Assembly (NCBI GenBank): GCA_902500785.1
Contig: CABVRW010000023.1
Coordinates: 1-53,310 of the forward strand
Origin: an uncultured Nitrospira sp.
Lineage (GTDB): Bacteria; Nitrospirota; Nitrospiria; Nitrospirales; Nitrospiraceae
DNA: 53,310 nucleotides
Reading direction: 5' to 3'
The notes below the pieces were generated by a model, which had not been told where the DNA came from, did no database searches, and saw only the letters and a list, made by a program, of their open reading frames with translations. Positions 32,436 to 41,789 of the stretch are shown here, one piece after another. The position numbers and the translations under genes were made by a program. Position 1 is the stretch's first letter. Each line of letters begins with the position of its first letter.

Positions 32436-32888
32436 ATGAAGGTTAGTCTTCGAGCCACCTATGGAATTATTGCCGCCGTGGATCTTGCGTTACAGCATGA
32501 CGAGCTGCCGGTCTGTGCCAAGTCGATTGCTAAGCGCCAAGCGATTCCGGCCCGATTCTTGGAGCAGGTTCTTCATGCGATGAAAAAGGCCGGGGTGGTG
32601 ACTAGCCAGCGGGGAGCTCAAGGCGGGTATGTGCTGAGCCGTAAGCCCTCGGAGTTGTCGGTGGCGGACATTCTCGACGCGTTAGAAGGCCCGCTTCTCA
32701 CCTCGAATGGTGAGGTCGGCATGAAGAACTTGTCTGCGCGAGGGGCGAAACAGGAGGCCCTGCTTGCACACATTTGGGATCGGGTGAAACGGGCGGAACT
32801 GAGTGTTCTTTCGGAAGTCACGGTCGAGGAATTGGCCCAGCGCCAGCGGGCTCTCGACGCGCAGCATACGTTGATGTATCACATCTGA
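32436..32888 (+). CDS. Rrf2-family transcriptional regulator
   Basis: The encoded protein has 150 residues. The winged-helix domain of Rrf2 proteins is clear: VSLRATYGIIAAVDLALQ, then IPARFLEQVLHAMKKAGVV and SQRGAQGGYVLSRKP. The usual three-cysteine iron-sulfur cluster site of IscR/NsrR is absent; the only cysteine is at residue 27. That makes it more like CymR, the cysteine-metabolism repressor of Firmicutes. It sits directly upstream of sulfite reductase and sulfate-activation genes, so control of sulfur assimilation is inferred from position. No ribosome-binding site is obvious. Confidence 0.88.
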   Translation: MKVSLRATYGIIAAVDLALQHDELPVCAKSIAKRQAIPARFLEQVLHAMKKAGVVTSQRGAQGGYVLSRKPSELSVADILDALEGPLLTSNGEVGMKNLSARGAKQEALLAHIWDRVKRAELSVLSEVTVEELAQRQRALDAQHTLMYHI

Positions 32889-32942: not shown

Positions 32943-35414
32943 ATGACTCCTAATACAGCGGCTCTCCGTCCAGCGATCAAAACAGAGCCCATTGCAGCCC
33001 ATATCGTCGAAGAAATCGAAACGTTTGAAGCGGAGGCCCATCGAGTCCTTGGGGGAGATCTCTCAACCGACATCTTCAAGCCATTCCGTCTGCAATACGG
33101 AATCTATGGCCAGCGGCAACCCGGGGTTCAGATGGTGCGGATTAAGATCCCGTTCGGCGGGCTGACGGGAAATCAGTTGCGCCAAGTGGCTGACCTGGCC
33201 GACAAGTTCGCCACCGGGGTGGGCCATGTCACGACACGCCAGGATATTCAACTGCACTTCGTGGAGCTCAAACATGTCCCGGAGATGATGCGTCTGTTGG
33301 CGTCTGTAGGGATGACCACGCGCGAGGCTTGTGCGAATACCGTACGAAACGTCACGGCTTGTCATTTAGCGGGCGTGTGCCAAGGGGAAGTGTTTGATGT
33401 GACGCCGTACGCGAAGACCGTCGCGCTGCATCTGTTGCGGAATCCGTTGAACCAGAGCCTCCCGCGGAAGTTCAAGATTGCGCTGTCCGGGTGCCGGCAG
33501 GATTGCGCGCTTACGCCTATCCACGACATCGGTTTGCTGGCGGCGAAACGGGCCGACGGGACCATCGGTTTCCGAATGGTGGCGGGCGGTGGATTGGGAT
33601 CGACGCCGCGTATGGCCCAAGTGCTCAGAGAATTTACGCCGATGGATGAATTGCTTCCGACCATCGAGGCGGTGATCAAGGTGTTCGATACGCTAGGGAA
33701 CCGCAAGAATCGCAATAAGGCGCGCATGAAGTTCGTCATCGAGAAGCTCGGCTTCGACGAATTCAAGCGTCGCTGGGAAGCGGCCTACGCGGCCATGGGG
33801 TATGCGGTGCCGACGCATGAGCCGATCAAATTGCTGGAGTATGCCGATGCGCCGCCGTTGATCATGCCGAGCCATGCAGGTGTCCCCTCCAACGGCAATG
33901 GGAATGGTGCCGGGTCGCTGAAGGGTCAGGCGTCCGCGTTCCAGGCCTGGACGCGCACCAATGTAGTTCCGCAGCGACAGGCGGGTTTTGTCACGGCGGC
34001 GATCAAATTACCGATGGGTGATTTGACGGGCGGGCAAATGTGGGTCGTCGCGGATCTGGCGGAACGCTATTCGAACGGCAACATCCGCACGACCATCAAT
34101 CAGAACATGGTCATCCGATGGATTTCCGAGGGACGGCTGGAAGAATTCTATCAGGAGCTCGTGGCGCATAGCTTGGGTGACCCTGGCGCAGAACTCGTCG
34201 AGGACATCATCGCCTGCCCCGGCACCGACACCTGCGGCTTGGGAATCACCTCCTCCAAAGGCATGGCGCGAGCCTTGGCCGAAGTGTTTCCAGCCGGCCA
34301 GGTTCCGGAAGATCTGAGGGACGTCAGTGTCAAGATCAGCGGTTGTCATAACTCCTGCGCACAGCACCATATTGCCACCATCGGCTTGCATGGAGTCGGC
34401 AAACGTCTCGGCGAGCATACGGCTCCGCATTATGAACTGCATTTGGGCGGGCACGTGGACGGCACGCCGAAGATCGGACAGCTGGTGGTCAAGCTGCCGG
34501 CCAAGAGTGTGCCGGCGGCAGTGCGCCATCTGGTGGACGTCTATCGTCGGGATCGGAAGGCCGACGAGACGCTTCAGTCGTTCATCGCGCGAGTCGGAAA
34601 AAACGTCCTCAAGGATGAGCTCATTCCTTATACGATCGTGCCGCCATATGACCAGGACCCGACCTATTATTACGACTGGGAAGGGGAGGCGGAATTTGTG
34701 CTTGAAGATCTCGGGCCCGGTGAGTGCGCGGGGGGTGCCTTGGAGATGATCGACGACCGCATGCTGGAGGCTGATCAGGAGCTCTATCAGGCGAAATTGC
34801 TTGTCGAGAAGCACCAGTATGCCTTGTCGGTGAATAAATCGTATCGGGCGGTCTTGGCGGCAGCGAAAGGTCTGCTGGTCACCGAGGGTGTCGATCCGGC
34901 GACCGATGCCGACACGTTTCAGGAGTTTGATCTGCGGCTGGCAAGCAAAGGCATCGTCCCAGCCATGTACAAGAATCTTGGCGCGCAGGTCGGCGACCTC
35001 GGGTCGAAGGATGCGACCGCCGAGACGGCGGCGGAGAAAATGGCGTTTGCGAAACAGTTCCTCGCGGTGTGCAGAGCGGCCACGGAACAAATGGGCAAAG
35101 ACCTGAAGTTGGCCCAGGTGAAAGAGGAAGCTGTGCCGCCGGCGACTCCCGCACTGGTGCCTGCCGCTCCCGTCGCCACGGCGCCCGTGTACGATCTGCG
35201 CGGCGTCGCCTGTCCGATGAACTATGTGAAGACCAAATTGAAACTGGAAATGATGGACAACGGTGAGCAGCTGGAAGTCTGGCTCGATGCCGGAGAGCCC
35301 ATTCGAAACGTGCCGATGAGCTTGCGGAACGACGGACACAAGATCCTCGAGGAGGGACCGTTGGAGCCGGAGGCCACGCATTTCAAAATCCTTGTGGAAA
35401 AGGTTGAGGGGTAA
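32943..35414 (+). CDS. Sulfite/nitrite reductase fused to helical domain and TusA
   Basis: An 823-residue siroheme-[4Fe-4S] reductase. Residues about 40-560 hold the two ferredoxin-like/catalytic repeats of the CysI/NirA family. Unusually both halves carry a C-x5-C...C-x3-C cluster motif: C140, C146, C184, C188 and C425, C431, C468, C472 (the second in CPGTDTC and GCHNSC). Residues about 600-710 form a helical HEPN-like domain, and residues about 745-823 are a TusA-like sulfur-carrier domain with C757 in GVACPMN. The genomic context with CysH, CysD and CysN favours sulfite as substrate. A GAGG lies 8 nt before the ATG. Nitrite reduction remains possible. Confidence 0.88.
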   Translation: MTPNTAALRPAIKTEPIAAHIVEEIETFEAEAHRVLGGDLSTDIFKPFRLQYGIYGQRQPGVQMVRIKIPFGGLTGNQLRQVADLADKFATGVGHVTTRQDIQLHFVELKHVPEMMRLLASVGMTTREACANTVRNVTACHLAGVCQGEVFDVTPYAKTVALHLLRNPLNQSLPRKFKIALSGCRQDCALTPIHDIGLLAAKRADGTIGFRMVAGGGLGSTPRMAQVLREFTPMDELLPTIEAVIKVFDTLGNRKNRNKARMKFVIEKLGFDEFKRRWEAAYAAMGYAVPTHEPIKLLEYADAPPLIMPSHAGVPSNGNGNGAGSLKGQASAFQAWTRTNVVPQRQAGFVTAAIKLPMGDLTGGQMWVVADLAERYSNGNIRTTINQNMVIRWISEGRLEEFYQELVAHSLGDPGAELVEDIIACPGTDTCGLGITSSKGMARALAEVFPAGQVPEDLRDVSVKISGCHNSCAQHHIATIGLHGVGKRLGEHTAPHYELHLGGHVDGTPKIGQLVVKLPAKSVPAAVRHLVDVYRRDRKADETLQSFIARVGKNVLKDELIPYTIVPPYDQDPTYYYDWEGEAEFVLEDLGPGECAGGALEMIDDRMLEADQELYQAKLLVEKHQYALSVNKSYRAVLAAAKGLLVTEGVDPATDADTFQEFDLRLASKGIVPAMYKNLGAQVGDLGSKDATAETAAEKMAFAKQFLAVCRAATEQMGKDLKLAQVKEEAVPPATPALVPAAPVATAPVYDLRGVACPMNYVKTKLKLEMMDNGEQLEVWLDAGEPIRNVPMSLRNDGHKILEEGPLEPEATHFKILVEKVEG

Positions 35415-35419
35415 ACGGG

Positions 35420-36142
35420 GTGCAAGACGAACAGATGCCTACTGCACGACCATCCGACGCAGCGCTGAAAGCGCTGAGCGATTCGTTCGAGACCAAGCAG
35501 CCATGGGAGGTGCTGGAGTATGCGCTCACGACCTTCCGGCAGCGAATTGTGCTGGCCTGCAGTTTTGGGGCGGAGGACGTCGCCCTGGTGGATATGGTGC
35601 ATCGGATTGATCCGGACGCACCGCTCTTTTATCTGGATACGGACTTTCTGTTTCCTGAAACTTTCGACGCGCGTGACCGGATTATCGCGCGGTACGGGTT
35701 GAAGCCGGCGCAGGTCATTGCAATGAAATCCCTATTGACGCCGGAACAGCAGGCCGTCCAATACGGAGCCTCGCTTTGGGCGAGCAAGCCTGACCAGTGC
35801 TGCGAATTGAGGAAGCTCGAGCCCCTCAACCGCATTCTGGCGAACTATACCGCCTGGATCACCGGGATCAGGCGAGACCAAGCTCCGACAAGAGCGAACG
35901 CCGGGCTGATCGAGTGGGACCGGAAATTCAATCTGGTCAAAGTGAATCCGCTGGCCCGATGGAGCAGTGAAGACGTCTGGACGTATCTCCAGCTCCATGA
36001 GGTCCCGTATAACGCGCTACACGACCGCAATTACCCCAGCATCGGCTGTACCCATTGTACGGCGCCTGTCCTTCCGGGAGACGATCCGCGTTCCGGTCGG
36101 TGGAAGAATTTCGGCAAGACCGAGTGCGGCCTCCACAAGTAA
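35420..36142 (+). CDS. cysH: APS reductase-type sulfonucleotide reductase
   Basis: This enzyme reduces adenylylsulfate to sulfite with thiol electrons. The protein has 240 residues. The [4Fe-4S] ligands CC (127-128) and CxxC (210-213, CTHC) are present, the mark of APS-type rather than cluster-free PAPS-type enzymes. The catalytic cysteine is in KTECGLHK at the C-terminus. The PP-loop-like SFGAEDVAL binds the nucleotide. The GTG start lies 5 nt after the upstream stop; an ATG 15 nt further in is also possible. The next gene starts 40 nt later. Confidence 0.93.
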   Translation: MQDEQMPTARPSDAALKALSDSFETKQPWEVLEYALTTFRQRIVLACSFGAEDVALVDMVHRIDPDAPLFYLDTDFLFPETFDARDRIIARYGLKPAQVIAMKSLLTPEQQAVQYGASLWASKPDQCCELRKLEPLNRILANYTAWITGIRRDQAPTRANAGLIEWDRKFNLVKVNPLARWSSEDVWTYLQLHEVPYNALHDRNYPSIGCTHCTAPVLPGDDPRSGRWKNFGKTECGLHK

Positions 36143-36182: not shown

Positions 36183-37250
36183 ATGCAACATCTGCTCGCG
36201 AAAGTCGCCAAAGGTCAAAAAACGTCCAAGGATCTCACGTGGGAGGAAGCCAAGCAGGCCATGCGCCTGATGATCGAAGGGACCGCCACGCCCGCGCAGG
36301 TCGGAGCCTTCCTCATTGCCATGCGATTCAAGTCGGAATCGTTCTCAGAGTTAGCCGCCTTCACCGCGACCGCGCGCCAATATGTTCCGCCGGTGCCGGT
36401 TCGCTCCGGGCTGGGAGTCGTCGATGTTCCCGTCTATGGGGGCAAGCGGGAAACCTTCCACGCCATCATTCCCGCCGCGATTGTGGCGGCAGCAGCCGGA
36501 GCCGTCCTGTTGCTGCATGGGGTGGATGGGCCTCCGGATCGACGGGGCATCTCATCCGTGCTGAAATTGTTGGGCATTCCGATCGATATGACGGCCAAGT
36601 TGGTCGGAGCCGAGCTGGAAAAGAAAGGGTTCGCCTACTTGGACCTGGCGCTGTATCACCCGCCGGTGAGCCGGTTTCTGGAAATGCGGCAGGAATTGGG
36701 TGTGCGAAATTTTTTCCATCCCGTGGCGCGAATGCTCAACCCCGCCCGTGCGACCTCGCAGGTGATCGGCCTGTCGCATCCGCCCTACTTTGAGAAGACG
36801 ATCGAGGCCTTGCGCATGTTGAGTTGTCCGCGTGCGTTGGTCATCCGCGGTGTCGAGGGTGATCCGGAGCTCTCGATCGGCAATTCGACGCGGCTTTTAG
36901 AACTGAAGGACGAGCGCATCACTCCATTTACCTTCCAGCCAAAGGATGCGGGGCTGACGATGGCGACGTTTCGTGAAATGGCGGGATTCCCTGTTGAACA
37001 GCGGGAGCGGGAGGCCGATCTGATCAAGCGGCTGCTCGCAAACGAAATTCAGGGGGGACAGCGCGACTGGGTGCTTCTCAATGCGGCGATGCTGCTGTAT
37101 GCGGCCGGCAAGGGGGCGTCGATCACCGGAAATCTTGGGACTGCCAGAAGCGCACTGGAATCCGGGCAGGCCAAGGCCAAGCTGGCCGAGCTGGTGGCGG
37201 CCGCCGGATCGAGCGCCGGTCGTGAGCCGACGGTCGGCATGTCAGCGTAA
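36183..37250 (+). CDS. TrpD-like glycosyltransferase-fold protein
   Basis: The 355-residue protein resembles anthranilate phosphoribosyltransferase (TrpD) and the YbiB/TrpD2 group: an N-terminal helical domain (LTWEEAKQAMRLMIEGTATP) followed by an alpha/beta domain. The key TrpD motifs are changed: the PRPP-binding GTGGD appears as PVYGGK, and KHGN appears as LHGVDG. It is therefore unlikely to make phosphoribosyl-anthranilate. It lies between cysH and cysD with short gaps on one strand, so a role in sulfur assimilation or nucleotide handling is possible, but nothing in the sequence shows it. Confidence 0.8.
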   Translation: MQHLLAKVAKGQKTSKDLTWEEAKQAMRLMIEGTATPAQVGAFLIAMRFKSESFSELAAFTATARQYVPPVPVRSGLGVVDVPVYGGKRETFHAIIPAAIVAAAAGAVLLLHGVDGPPDRRGISSVLKLLGIPIDMTAKLVGAELEKKGFAYLDLALYHPPVSRFLEMRQELGVRNFFHPVARMLNPARATSQVIGLSHPPYFEKTIEALRMLSCPRALVIRGVEGDPELSIGNSTRLLELKDERITPFTFQPKDAGLTMATFREMAGFPVEQREREADLIKRLLANEIQGGQRDWVLLNAAMLLYAAGKGASITGNLGTARSALESGQAKAKLAELVAAAGSSAGREPTVGMSA

Positions 37251-37267: not shown

Positions 37268-38065
37268 ATGAAACATTTGCGTCAACTCGAAGATCAAAGC
37301 GTTTATATCCTTCGGGAAGCCTACAAGCATTTCAACCATCTCGCCATGCTCTGGTCGATGGGGAAGGATTCGACGGTGCTCTTGTGGCTGGCCCGCAAGG
37401 CGTTCTTCGGGCATGTGCCCTTCCCGTTACTCCATGTGGATACCAGTTACAAGATCCCGGCGATGATCGAATACCGCGATCGGATTGCACGCGAATGGCG
37501 GTTGAATCTGGTCGTTGGTCAGAACAAGGAAGCTCTGGCTGCGGGCATGAACCATACTCTGGGGCGGGATGTCTGCTGTACCGCCTTGAAGACGACGGCC
37601 ATGAAGAATCTGGTCGAAGAGAAAGGGTACACCGGCATTATCCTCGGCGTTCGCGCGGATGAAGACAGCACCAGGGCCAAGGAACGATATTTTTCTCCTC
37701 GCGACAAACACGGTGATTGGGACTTTCGCGATCAGCCGCCCGAATTGTGGGATCAGTTCAAGACGACCTTTCCGCCGGGCACGCATATCCGGATTCATCC
37801 GCTCCTCGATTGGACCGAGATCAACATCTGGGAATATATCAAGCACGAGAACATTCCATTCATGGATCTGTATCTCGACAGAGGAGATGGGACGCGCTAT
37901 CGAAGCTTGGGCTGTGCGCCCTGCACCATGCCCATCCAATCTACGGCGAAGACCGTCGACGAGATCATTACCGAACTGCGGGGGAGTCATGTGGCGGAAC
38001 GAGCGGGCCGTGCGCAGGACGCGGGGCGAGGCATGGAGATGCTCCGCAAGAAGGGGTACATGTAA
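37268..38065 (+). CDS. cysD: Sulfate adenylyltransferase subunit 2
   Basis: CysD, with CysN, makes APS from sulfate and ATP. The protein has 265 residues. The PP-loop is [17 protein letters not shown], and the [20 protein letters not shown] segment matches the family's R-x-D-E-x-x-R region. The C-terminal GCAPCTMPI and [18 protein letters not shown] end are typical. The gene is 17 nt after the TrpD-like gene and 84 nt before cysN. The family assignment is firm. Confidence 0.95.
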
Positions 38066-38138: not shown

Positions 38139-38149
38139 GAGTGAATCAT

Positions 38150-39997
38150 ATGACACAGCAGGACCAGACCAAGCCGCAAGAGAGTCTCAACATCGTCATC
38201 GTGGGCCATGTGGATCACGGGAAATCCACGCTGGTGGGACGACTCTATGCCGATACGGGCTCGTTGCCGGACGGCAAATTGGAAAAGGTGCAGGCCATCT
38301 GCCGCCAGCAGGGCAAGGAATTTGAGTATGCGTTTCTCTTCGATGCGTTTCTGGAGGAACAGGAACAGGGGATCACGATCGATACGGCGCGCACGTTCTT
38401 CATCTGGAACGGACGTCAGTACATCATCATCGATGCGCCTGGCCACAAAGAGTTTTTGAAGAACATGATCTCGGGCGCCGCTCGGGCCGAAGCCGCGCTC
38501 TTACTGATCGACGCTCTGGAAGGGGTGCGCGAGCAATCGAAGAAACATGGCTATCTCCTGTCCTTGCTGGGCGTGACGCAGTTCGCGGTCGTCGTCAATA
38601 AAATGGATCTGGTCGGGTATCGCCAGGATGTGTTCGACGGGATTGAAAAGGAATATCGGGAGTTTCTGGGCCAGTTCCGGGCCGTCCCTCAACAGATGAT
38701 TCCGGTCAGCGCCAAGATGGGCGACAACATTGCGGTTCGCAGCGGCAATATGAACTGGTATCAAGGTCCCACCGTGCTGGAGACGCTGGCGCTCTTCAAG
38801 AAAGAGCAGGTCCGTTCCGAACAGCCGCTTCGGTTTCCCCTGCAGGACGTCTATAAGTTCGATGCGCGGCGGATTCTGGCCGGTCGCATTACAGCCGGCC
38901 GCCTCAAGGTCGGCGATCAACTGGTGTTTTCCCCTTCCAACAAGACGGCGATCGTGCAATCGATCGAAGGATTCAATGTCGATCCACCGGGAAGCGAAGC
39001 CCAGGCCGGGCAATCGGTCGGGATCACGCTGGATGAACAGATTTTTGTCGAGCGCGGAGAAATCGCCTCGCATCGGGATTCGGTTCCGCTCGTCTCGACG
39101 GCGGTTCGGGTGAATTTATTCTGGATGGGACGGCGGCCTTTGGAGAAGGGGCGGAAGTATGTCCTGCGCCTTGCCACGCGTGAAGTCGCCTGTGAAGTGA
39201 CCGCCATCCACCGCATTATCGATACCGCCGACCTGGATCAGCTTCAGGAAAGTCAGTCAGTGGCCAAGAATCAAGTGGCCGAACTGACGTTGCGAGTGAA
39301 GGCGCCGCTCGCGTTTGATCTCTCATCATCATTTGAAGCGACCGGCCGGTTCGTGCTGGTCGATGAATACGACATTGCCGGGGGCGGGATTATCACCGAG
39401 TTGGTGCATGACGAACAGGAAGGATTGCGCGAAGAGGCTCGGCAACGAGAATATGCGTGGCTCTCGGGAGATGTCCGGGCAGAAGATCGCGCGGTGCAGT
39501 ATGGGCATCGGGCCGCCATTGTGCTGTTCACGGGATCGGCCCAGACGGGTAAGACATTTCTCGCGAGACGGGTGGAGGCGTTGCTGGTTGCCGATAGCCG
39601 GCATGCGTATCTGTTGGAGGGTGAGAATCTGCTCCAAGGATTGGATGCGGATTTATCCGCCGCCGATCCGTCCTTCGCGGCCGAGCGAGTGCGCCGGTAT
39701 GGGGAGGTCGCCAGGCTGCTGATTGATACGGGGCTCATCGTCGTGTCCACCAGCAAAACCTTCGGCATCAATTATCAGCGGATGGCCGAGATGATACGGA
39801 CCTTGGTTCAGCCGGCTCCGGTCATCTCCGTGCACATGAGCCGGGCCGGGGAGGAGCCACCGCCGAATACCGATCTGCACTTTGCCGGGCCTCAGGATTT
39901 CGACGCAGCGGCCCGGCAGATCCTGGAGGAGTTGAAGCGGAGTGGGGTGCTCATCCAGCCATCCGGAACGAAGCCTACGATCCAATACTCAATCTAG
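38150..39997 (+). CDS. cysN: Sulfate adenylyltransferase subunit 1 with APS-kinase-like tail
   Basis: The protein has 615 residues. The N-terminal GTPase (about 1-430) has [17 protein letters not shown] and NKMD, and drives APS synthesis with CysD. A C-terminal region of about 170 residues resembles APS kinase, but the P-loop is GSAQTGKT (from residue 462) rather than the usual GLSGSGKS and the canonical FISPFR-type active-site segment is replaced by [13 protein letters not shown]. Kinase activity is therefore doubtful. This fits the APS-type CysH nearby, which does not need PAPS. ATG at 38150 is preferred to a GTG 9 nt upstream. Confidence 0.92.
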
Positions 39998-40074: not shown

Positions 40075-41001
40075 ATGACCATGGCTGCCGGCAAGGATCT
40101 CAAGTCGATCCTCACGAAACTCCAATATTCCGACGATGCCAAAGTCGTCCAGCAGATCACTGCGCAGATGAAGCAGGTGCAGGCTCGAATGGCCGGTGTC
40201 AAGCAGAAGCTGGTGGTCATGAGCGGGAAGGGCGGCGTCGGCAAGAGCATGACGACGGTGAATCTCGCCCTCGCGTTTGCACGCCAGGGCGCGAAGGTCG
40301 GTTTGCTGGATGTTGATCTGAACGGCCCCTGTGTCCCGAGGATGATGGGCCTCCACGGCCAATCGCTCACCATGACTCCTGAAGGCGCGCAGCCTCCTGT
40401 CGGCCCGCTCGGCATTAAAGTGGCCTCGATGGATTTTTTCCTCGATGACGCTTCGCCGGTGCGTTGGAAGGGTCCGATGGATTTGAGCCCGGTATGGCTG
40501 GGCCTGATGGAAATGAATGTGATTCGAGAATTCTTGGCCGATGTGATCTGGGGAGAGCTGGACTATCTTCTGGCCGATCTTCCCCCGGGTGCGGCTGCCG
40601 ATAAACCTCCGGTCATCGCCGGATTCATCCCTGATCTCGCCGGTGCCATCGTCGTCACGACCCCGTCGGAAGTGGCGTCTGATGTGGTGCAGAAGTCCGT
40701 GACCTACGCGCGGGATATGGGGATACGGGTGTTGGGCATCGTTGAAAACATGAGTGAGTATCGCTGCCCCGCCTGTGGAGCGGAGAATGAGCTGTTTGAG
40801 GGGAATACCGAGGCGATGTGCGAAGTGCTGGACCTGCCGTTGCTTGGGCGTATCCCGTTCGACCGAAAATTAGCGAAGACGTTCGATAAGGGTCAGCCGC
40901 TCCTCGATCCCGACTATCCGACGATCCAAAAATATCAAGAGATCGTCGGGCGGATTCAATCGTTACTGGATTACAAAAAAGTCCTGGCGGAAAAGCTGTA
41001 A
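40075..41001 (+). CDS. mrp: Mrp/ApbC-family iron-sulfur ATPase
   Basis: Mrp proteins carry and deliver iron-sulfur clusters in an ATP-dependent way. The protein has 308 residues. The deviant Walker A is SGKGGVGKS near residue 45, and DVDLNGPCVPRMMG follows. The cluster-binding CPACG motif lies near residue 235. The DUF59 domain of some Mrp proteins is absent; the N-terminal region is a short helical segment instead. Its place after four sulfur-assimilation genes suggests cluster supply to the sulfite and APS reductases (inference). Confidence 0.9.
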   Translation: MTMAAGKDLKSILTKLQYSDDAKVVQQITAQMKQVQARMAGVKQKLVVMSGKGGVGKSMTTVNLALAFARQGAKVGLLDVDLNGPCVPRMMGLHGQSLTMTPEGAQPPVGPLGIKVASMDFFLDDASPVRWKGPMDLSPVWLGLMEMNVIREFLADVIWGELDYLLADLPPGAAADKPPVIAGFIPDLAGAIVVTTPSEVASDVVQKSVTYARDMGIRVLGIVENMSEYRCPACGAENELFEGNTEAMCEVLDLPLLGRIPFDRKLAKTFDKGQPLLDPDYPTIQKYQEIVGRIQSLLDYKKVLAEKL

Positions 41002-41027: not shown

Positions 41028-41789
41028 ATGAAGTTCGTTTGTTTGAACTGCGAGACCTACATGACCTTTCAGAAGGTCGAAAAGCCCGGGGAGGGGTCGC
41101 TCGGTGTCTTTTTTGGCTGCCCATCTTGCGATGCCAAGTTCTCCATGGTGACCAATCCCGGCGAGACGCAAATGGTCGCCTCGCTTGGTGTGAAGCTCGG
41201 AGGTCGCACAGAGACGGCTGAACCGTTTGAGATGACTCGCGGGACCCTCAAGGATGAAGCGCAAGCCGGTGCGGGACAAATGGCTGCCTATCTCAATGAG
41301 AAAATTCAAAGTGGGCAACCAGCAACTGTCTCGGAAAAACCCAGCACCCCCACGTCTGCATCTGGCGAGGAGAAGACCTCCGGCGGCTGTCCATTCTCCG
41401 CCATGGTGGCAGAAATGGGATTAACCTCCGGCGGCAAGCCACAGAATGGAAATGGCACCAGCGACTTCACATGGTCCGCAGATGCCAAAGAGAAGTTGGA
41501 ACGACTGCCGTCTTTTGTGAAGCCGATGGTCCAAAGCAGTGTGGAAGCCTATGCGCGCAAGCAGGGGTATAAGAGTATCACGCTGCAGGTCATGGATGAT
41601 TCCAAGAACGATTCACCCAACGGCATCGCGTGGACTAAAGACGCTGAACAGCGCATGGATAATATTCCCGACTTCATTCGTCCGATGGCCAGACGAGAAA
41701 TCGAGCGGATTGCGAAGGAGCGCGGACTGACGGAGATCACGGCGCAAGTAATGGATGAAGCCAAAGAGAAGTTCATGAAGTTCATGTAG
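41028..41789 (+). CDS. Zinc-ribbon protein with two PCP_red domains
   Basis: The 253-residue protein starts with a zinc ribbon (C5, C8, C31, C34). A linker (about 65-140) follows, with a GCPFSAMV segment. Two tandem copies of the PCP_red domain, which also ends the B subunit of light-independent protochlorophyllide reductase, cover residues about 146-190 (FTWSADAKEKLERLPSFVK) and 199-250 (IAWTKDAEQRMDNIPDFIR). No chlorophyll gene is present. It starts 27 nt after mrp and ends 31 nt before a strong terminator hairpin, so it closes the sulfur locus. Its role is unknown; a cluster-binding or reductase-partner job is inference. Confidence 0.82.
   Translation: MKFVCLNCETYMTFQKVEKPGEGSLGVFFGCPSCDAKFSMVTNPGETQMVASLGVKLGGRTETAEPFEMTRGTLKDEAQAGAGQMAAYLNEKIQSGQPATVSEKPSTPTSASGEEKTSGGCPFSAMVAEMGLTSGGKPQNGNGTSDFTWSADAKEKLERLPSFVKPMVQSSVEAYARKQGYKSITLQVMDDSKNDSPNGIAWTKDAEQRMDNIPDFIRPMARREIERIAKERGLTEITAQVMDEAKEKFMKFM

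Follow-up and report, generated by a model that had tools for sequence, protein, structure and literature searches.

A sulfite reductase of Nitrospira with cluster motifs in both halves, fused to HEPN and TusA domains

Known siroheme reductases and the Nitrospira locus

The well-studied assimilatory sulfite reductases carry their cluster in the C-terminal half only. In the accepted model, enzymes of this kind arose via duplication and fusion, after which one of the halves lost the cluster motif (PMC10229431). The residues Arg355, Arg423, Lys460 and Lys462 of Fsr are substrate residues conserved across sulfite reductases, Arg388 of Fsr is a trait of the assimilatory enzymes, and DsrA bears a structural tetrapyrrole-cluster site (PMC10229431).

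The window, that is, the whole analysed stretch of 53,310 nucleotides, contains the gene series Rrf2 - SiR - CysH - TrpD2-like - CysD - CysNC - Mrp (Table 1). The SiR product of 823 amino acids has two matches each to the Pfam families NIR_SIR (200.9 bits) and NIR_SIR_ferr (130.6 bits), a weak match to HEPN (24.4 bits, cut-off 22) and a clear match to TusA (56.7 bits, cut-off 28.6). In the predicted models, the reductase core has the fold of SiRHP/NirA/NiR (Z 12-14), the HEPN region matches 2hsb (Z 16.0, with pLDDT mostly 84-96 in the domain) and the TusA region matches E. coli TusA 3lvj (Z 11.3). The full-length AlphaFold model has a mean pLDDT of 61, and its cluster loops (residues 139-150, 186-193 and 466-474) fall below 50. 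The original prediction of a duplicated CysI/NirA-type core followed by a HEPN-like helical domain and a TusA domain with reactive C757 is borne out by the Pfam domains, the predicted folds and the position of this residue; the cysteines that it placed at 140/146/184/188, 425/431/468/472 and 757 are exact in the translated ORF.

Table 1. Features of the SiR-HEPN-TusA gene and its neighbours in the window
Feature	Coordinates	Strand	Remarks
Rrf2-family regulator	32436..32888	+	directly upstream of SiR; weak CymR/IscR-like scores
SiR-HEPN-TusA ORF, 823 aa	32943..35414	+	ATG start; siroheme sulfite reductase, cluster motifs in both halves
N-terminal half, residues 45-300	33075..33842	+	basic residues R66, R99, R135, K176, K178 and extra cluster motif
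N-half CX5C, C140-C146	33360..33380	+	
N-half CX3C, C184-C188	33492..33506	+	
C-terminal half, residues 332-568	33936..34646	+	canonical catalytic cluster motif
C-half CX5C, C425-C431	34215..34235	+	
C-half CX3C, C468-C472	34344..34358	+	
G593-E594-C595	34719..34727	+	invariant tail motif ahead of HEPN
HEPN domain, residues 597-718	34731..35096	+	Pfam, fold comparison
TusA domain, residues 749-822	35187..35408	+	reactive Cys C757 in CPMN motif
CysH (PAPS/APS reductase)	35420..36142	+	
TrpD2/YbiB-like phosphoribosyltransferase	36183..37250	+	
CysD (sulfate adenylyltransferase small subunit)	37268..38065	+	
CysN with APS-kinase-like domain	38141..39997	+	
Mrp/ApbC-type iron-sulfur cluster carrier ATPase	40075..41001	+	

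The sequence relatives of the ORF in PDB are plant nitrite reductases, M. tuberculosis NirA, and the plant and E. coli sulfite reductases; Fsr is a more distant one. Two NIR_SIR_ferr and NIR_SIR repeats in one chain, the CX5C...CX3C motif in the C-half, and the Arg/Arg/Lys/Lys substrate set together with the assimilatory-type Arg (R99) place the ORF, by its sequence, in the fused, assimilatory-type siroheme sulfite/nitrite reductase superfamily, with sulfite reduction as the predicted reaction. CysI/SiRHP, plant SiR and NirA (1aop, 5h8v, 1zj8) share with it the duplicated single-chain core, the C-half cluster motif, all substrate basic residues and the assimilatory operon. However, the Nitrospira enzyme adds a full N-half motif, a Gly-Glu-Cys tail, HEPN and TusA, and its operon, unlike the CysI systems, is devoid of CysJ. 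The label of a CysI-type enzyme is ruled out at the level of NCBIfam equivalogs, as the score is 130.8 bits at a cut-off of 756.55 for CysI; for NirA it is 283.6 at a cut-off of 523. The one-cluster subtype is defined by loss of the N-half motif, whereas the ORF keeps all four ligands and, judged by these, is a member of the fused superfamily outside this subtype.

DsrAB also consists of two pseudo-symmetric halves with cluster ligands in both, but these are encoded by two genes, contain inserted ferredoxin domains, have Thr in DsrA for the assimilatory-type Arg and CXnCCX3C in DsrB, and work with the partner DsrC. The ORF has R99 and CX5C in both halves, and it scores far below the dsrA and dsrB cut-offs. 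Fsr and AsrC (7np8, 7npa), the proposed pre-duplication form, have the CX5CXnCX3C motif and the same substrate residues, but only one repeat, an inserted ferredoxin domain and different parts for electron input; the ORF has two repeats, and Pfam finds no ferredoxin domain in it.

The closest relative found outside Nitrospirota is a plasmid-encoded enzyme of Thermus oshimai (WP_015065284.1, about 42% identity over residues 23-596). Its gene, too, sits with siroheme-synthesis and CysH/Sat genes, but the protein has C-S-C-H in the N-half and contains neither HEPN nor TusA. The 'nitrite/sulfite reductases' of the Bacteroidota Persicobacter and Aureibacter (L122, L124, L130) have a similar core, a GECAG tail and a HEPN-like helical domain, but no N-half ligand cysteines and no TusA. 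In a full-text literature search, which covered few subscription papers, no description was found of a fused reductase that has the cluster motif in each half, or of a HEPN-TusA fusion of a sulfite reductase.

The gene order Rrf2-SiR-CysH-TrpD2-CysD-CysNC is common to the relatives of this Nitrospira. In distant members of the class and phylum the SiR gene lies between AprAB and Sat, or beside CysH and Sat. All these contexts fit a role in sulfate assimilation. The genes scanned around SiR include no CysJ-type flavoprotein, and thus the electrons probably come from ferredoxin. The TrpD2/YbiB-like gene is also found beside the reductase in more distant members of the class (L170:3233-4264). The Mrp ATPase gene is adjoined by a gene (41028-41789) for a protein with two PCP_red domains (protochlorophyllide reductase B C-terminal domain), and in family f30 Sat, too, is followed by this pair (L186).

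The extra cysteine set and its ancestry

In a profile-profile alignment, the N-half of the family matches its C-half (probability 99.1, E 5.6e-19), with C140 opposite C425, C146 opposite C431, C184 opposite C468 and C188 opposite C472. In the reference alignment, the four N-half cysteines share columns with the four cluster cysteines of the single-half AsrC, whereas E. coli CysI has none of the four. Absence of the first four cysteines from the cluster-ligand columns had been set beforehand as the result that would overturn the original prediction. This is ruled out by both alignments, in which all four are paired. Since the half-to-half alignment pairs the cysteines and all four are conserved, the motif match in the N-half is not due to chance.

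All eight cysteines are invariant in 97 sequences from Nitrospirales, bar one row gapped at two N-half positions. The N-half set is complete in 12 of the 12 homologues from class and phylum level whose sequence spans it (not all twelve extend over the C-half) and in 17 of 21 additional loci. The remaining four loci, all with C-S-C-H, are members of a single class-level family, f30, that have no C146 and C188 equivalents and keep everything else. Thus, at identities of 42-100%, the four cysteines persist in nearly every sampled Nitrospirota homologue. Matches at E <= 1e-60 were found in 142 of 296 Nitrospirota genomes and 45 of 143 genera, a count in which at least one genome (G077) matches only via a different, NirA-like protein.

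Outside Nitrospirota the sample consisted of plasmid records, one viral contig and E. coli. Three of the four cysteines are present in the own NirA of the Nitrospira genome (contig C80, C-N-C-C), in similar form at two further loci (L152, L153), and in an enzyme of Natronococcus (C-D-C-C). In Thermus oshimai the equivalents of C140 and C184 alone remain. None of the four are found in the sampled proteobacterial CysI-like and Bacteroidota enzymes, including the single Bacteroidota reductase from the viral-contig scan.

One possibility is that the N-half cysteines bind no cluster and are a relic retained to aid folding, bind zinc or form a disulfide. We find this unlikely: all four ligands are fully invariant over the above range of identities, and C146 and C188 change jointly in both f30 and Thermus, as expected for one ligand set. 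On the other hand, the partial sets at the same columns in other fused reductases, and the retention of the enzyme in f30 after two of the four were dropped, would fit a relic.

In the maximum-likelihood tree, computed without the four ligand columns, the four-cysteine enzymes of Nitrospirota form one clade with the Thermus and Bacteroidota homologues (87% support). The state CCCC is widespread within the clade, and f30 is nested in the class-level group (93% support); therefore the C-S-C-H state of f30 is a loss. The placement of Thermus and Bacteroidota is poorly supported (47-65%). According to this tree, CCCC is the state predicted for the ancestor of the Nitrospirota-Thermus-Bacteroidota clade and the changes inside it are losses, with Thermus and Bacteroidota accounting for at least one more in addition to f30. 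The same C-S-C-H state, together with S182E and S471A, is shared by f30 (L186, L187, L199) and Thermus (L123), hinting at transfer or convergence.

Alternatively, the ancestor of the clade could have regained C146 (and C188), in which case the full N-half motif would not date back to the duplication. C146 is absent from all sampled fused outgroups, and equal-cost parsimony makes one regain cheaper than several losses. However, both the single-half AsrC and DsrA have all four cysteines, the NirA-type outgroups still hold three of them, and the changes seen within the clade are losses. A regain therefore seems to us possible, if rather doubtful.

The catalytic site and a candidate second metal centre

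The equivalents of Fsr Arg355/Arg388/Arg423/Lys460/Lys462 are R66/R99/R135/K176/K178, all of which belong to the N-half and do not vary within the clade. The mirror positions of the C-half (A353, N386, E420, D460 and S462) contain no conserved basic residue and vary among homologues. In the 20 four-cysteine sequences there are 17 invariant Arg/Lys positions in residues 45-300 vs. 3 in residues 332-568. By homology, the catalytic siroheme-[4Fe-4S] would be bound by C425/431/468/472, with C472 expected to form the bridge to the siroheme, and the basic residues of the N-half would hold the substrate and the siroheme.

A siroheme has eight carboxylates to be held. Since the mirror site has no conserved basic residues to hold them, a second siroheme in the chain is unlikely, and a second catalytic site is less likely still. 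For the same reason we consider it improbable that both halves of the chain house a complete siroheme- (or sirohydrochlorin-) [4Fe-4S] centre, in the manner of a DsrAB fused into one protein, where one tetrapyrrole is active and the other structural, although the N-half cluster motif is complete and DsrA holds a comparable structural site (PMC10229431). DsrB, by contrast, retains Arg at several of the mirror positions, as read by eye.

A bare [4Fe-4S] in the N-half appears to be the best fit to these observations. Thus it is probable that the enzyme is a single-chain assimilatory reductase whose C-half holds the one catalytic siroheme-[4Fe-4S] and whose N-half holds a non-catalytic [4Fe-4S]. 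The latter, most likely bound by the N-half CX5C...CX3C without siroheme, would be a leftover from the duplicated ancestor, partly or wholly lost in other fused enzymes, and it may play a structural role or serve as an electron store. As f30 lost two of the four cysteines and kept everything else, this cluster seems to be dispensable for the core reaction; at the sequence level, the changes in f30, Thermus and Bacteroidota show that the motif is not essential. Of the two options originally offered, two siroheme centres or one active and one structural cluster, the second is favoured by the confinement of the basic residues to the N-half and by the loss in f30.

The C-terminal domains and sulfur transfer

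The Gly-Glu-Cys motif is invariant between the core and HEPN and is also present in the SiR-HEPN proteins of Bacteroidota, and in the Thermus oshimai protein (L123, 5980-7704) it is the extreme C-terminus (GECAV). This tail, with C595, is possibly a C-terminal Cys arm. The series of a core with the Cys tail in Thermus, the same with HEPN in Bacteroidota, and with both HEPN and TusA in Nitrospirota suggests stepwise assembly. The RNase motif R-x4-6-H is absent from HEPN of the 823-aa protein and from 66 of 73 sequences.

The TusA domain has CPMN and not the CPxP signature; CPxN is found in the counted homologues too, and the same genome encodes a stand-alone TusA with CPxN. The fused domain is not the sole TusA of the genome, as two other TusA proteins are present. 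Six genomes of family f7 encode TusA separately, by a gene that lies immediately downstream in the same orientation, and in genome G198 the fused SiR-HEPN chain (896 aa, L188:2057-4744) contains two tandem TusA domains. A separate adjacent tusA and a doubled TusA commonly indicate that two proteins work together, which supports, by gene arrangement, such a link with the reductase. In genome G183 moaD and moaE precede the split SiR-HEPN and tusA genes in the same orientation (L168:3446-6843). A conserved link with molybdopterin is ruled out, as moaD-moaE occur in this genome only and are absent from the stretches fetched for the five other members of the family. Several Nitrospirota genomes also have a single-half siroheme reductase of about 310-335 aa (AsrC/Dsr-like) beside tusA (L173:2619-3861; G125:C2, G062:C294, G071:C254).

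A handoff of sulfur from the reductase to TusA, originally proposed as acceptance of the sulfide in persulfide form, can be hypothesized. TusA carries sulfane sulfur, a less reduced form than sulfide, and therefore the handoff needs either the early departure of an intermediate from the siroheme, the route of DsrAB-DsrC, or an oxidation step acting on the product. If it occurs, the C595 tail, HEPN and TusA (C757) probably move reduced sulfur onto a carrier cysteine, and carrier-bound sulfur would be formed instead of, or besides, the release of free sulfide. The enzyme would then be a fused intermediate of the duplication with two metal centres, in which siroheme sulfur passes via C595 to TusA and sulfite is assimilated as a protein-bound persulfide; this seems to us a long shot. 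It is equally speculative that the persulfide handoff makes the enzyme a single-chain assimilatory counterpart of DsrAB-DsrC.

There is a fair case that TusA is not fed by the reductase at all: it could be attached for a regulatory purpose or donate sulfur elsewhere, and sulfide would be simply released for cysteine synthesis. By analogy, the assimilatory-type Arg99 of the core, tied to full six-electron reduction, speaks for complete reduction; the homologues in Thermus and Bacteroidota have no TusA, and the genome has its other TusA proteins. However, TusA is fused or immediately adjacent across the sampled Nitrospirota families, and C595 is invariant at the junction with HEPN. We regard an unfed TusA as quite conceivable, while falling short of expecting it.

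The Nitrospira enzyme looks like a living intermediate in the evolution of sulfite reductases. A large conserved clade of environmental importance, comprising the nitrifying Nitrospira and their relatives, retains the N-half motif, and close relatives are caught losing it. The duplication-fusion model (PMC10229431) thus becomes testable in this enzyme, as does the function of its second site, and the fusion with TusA would tie sulfate assimilation directly to sulfur-carrier chemistry.
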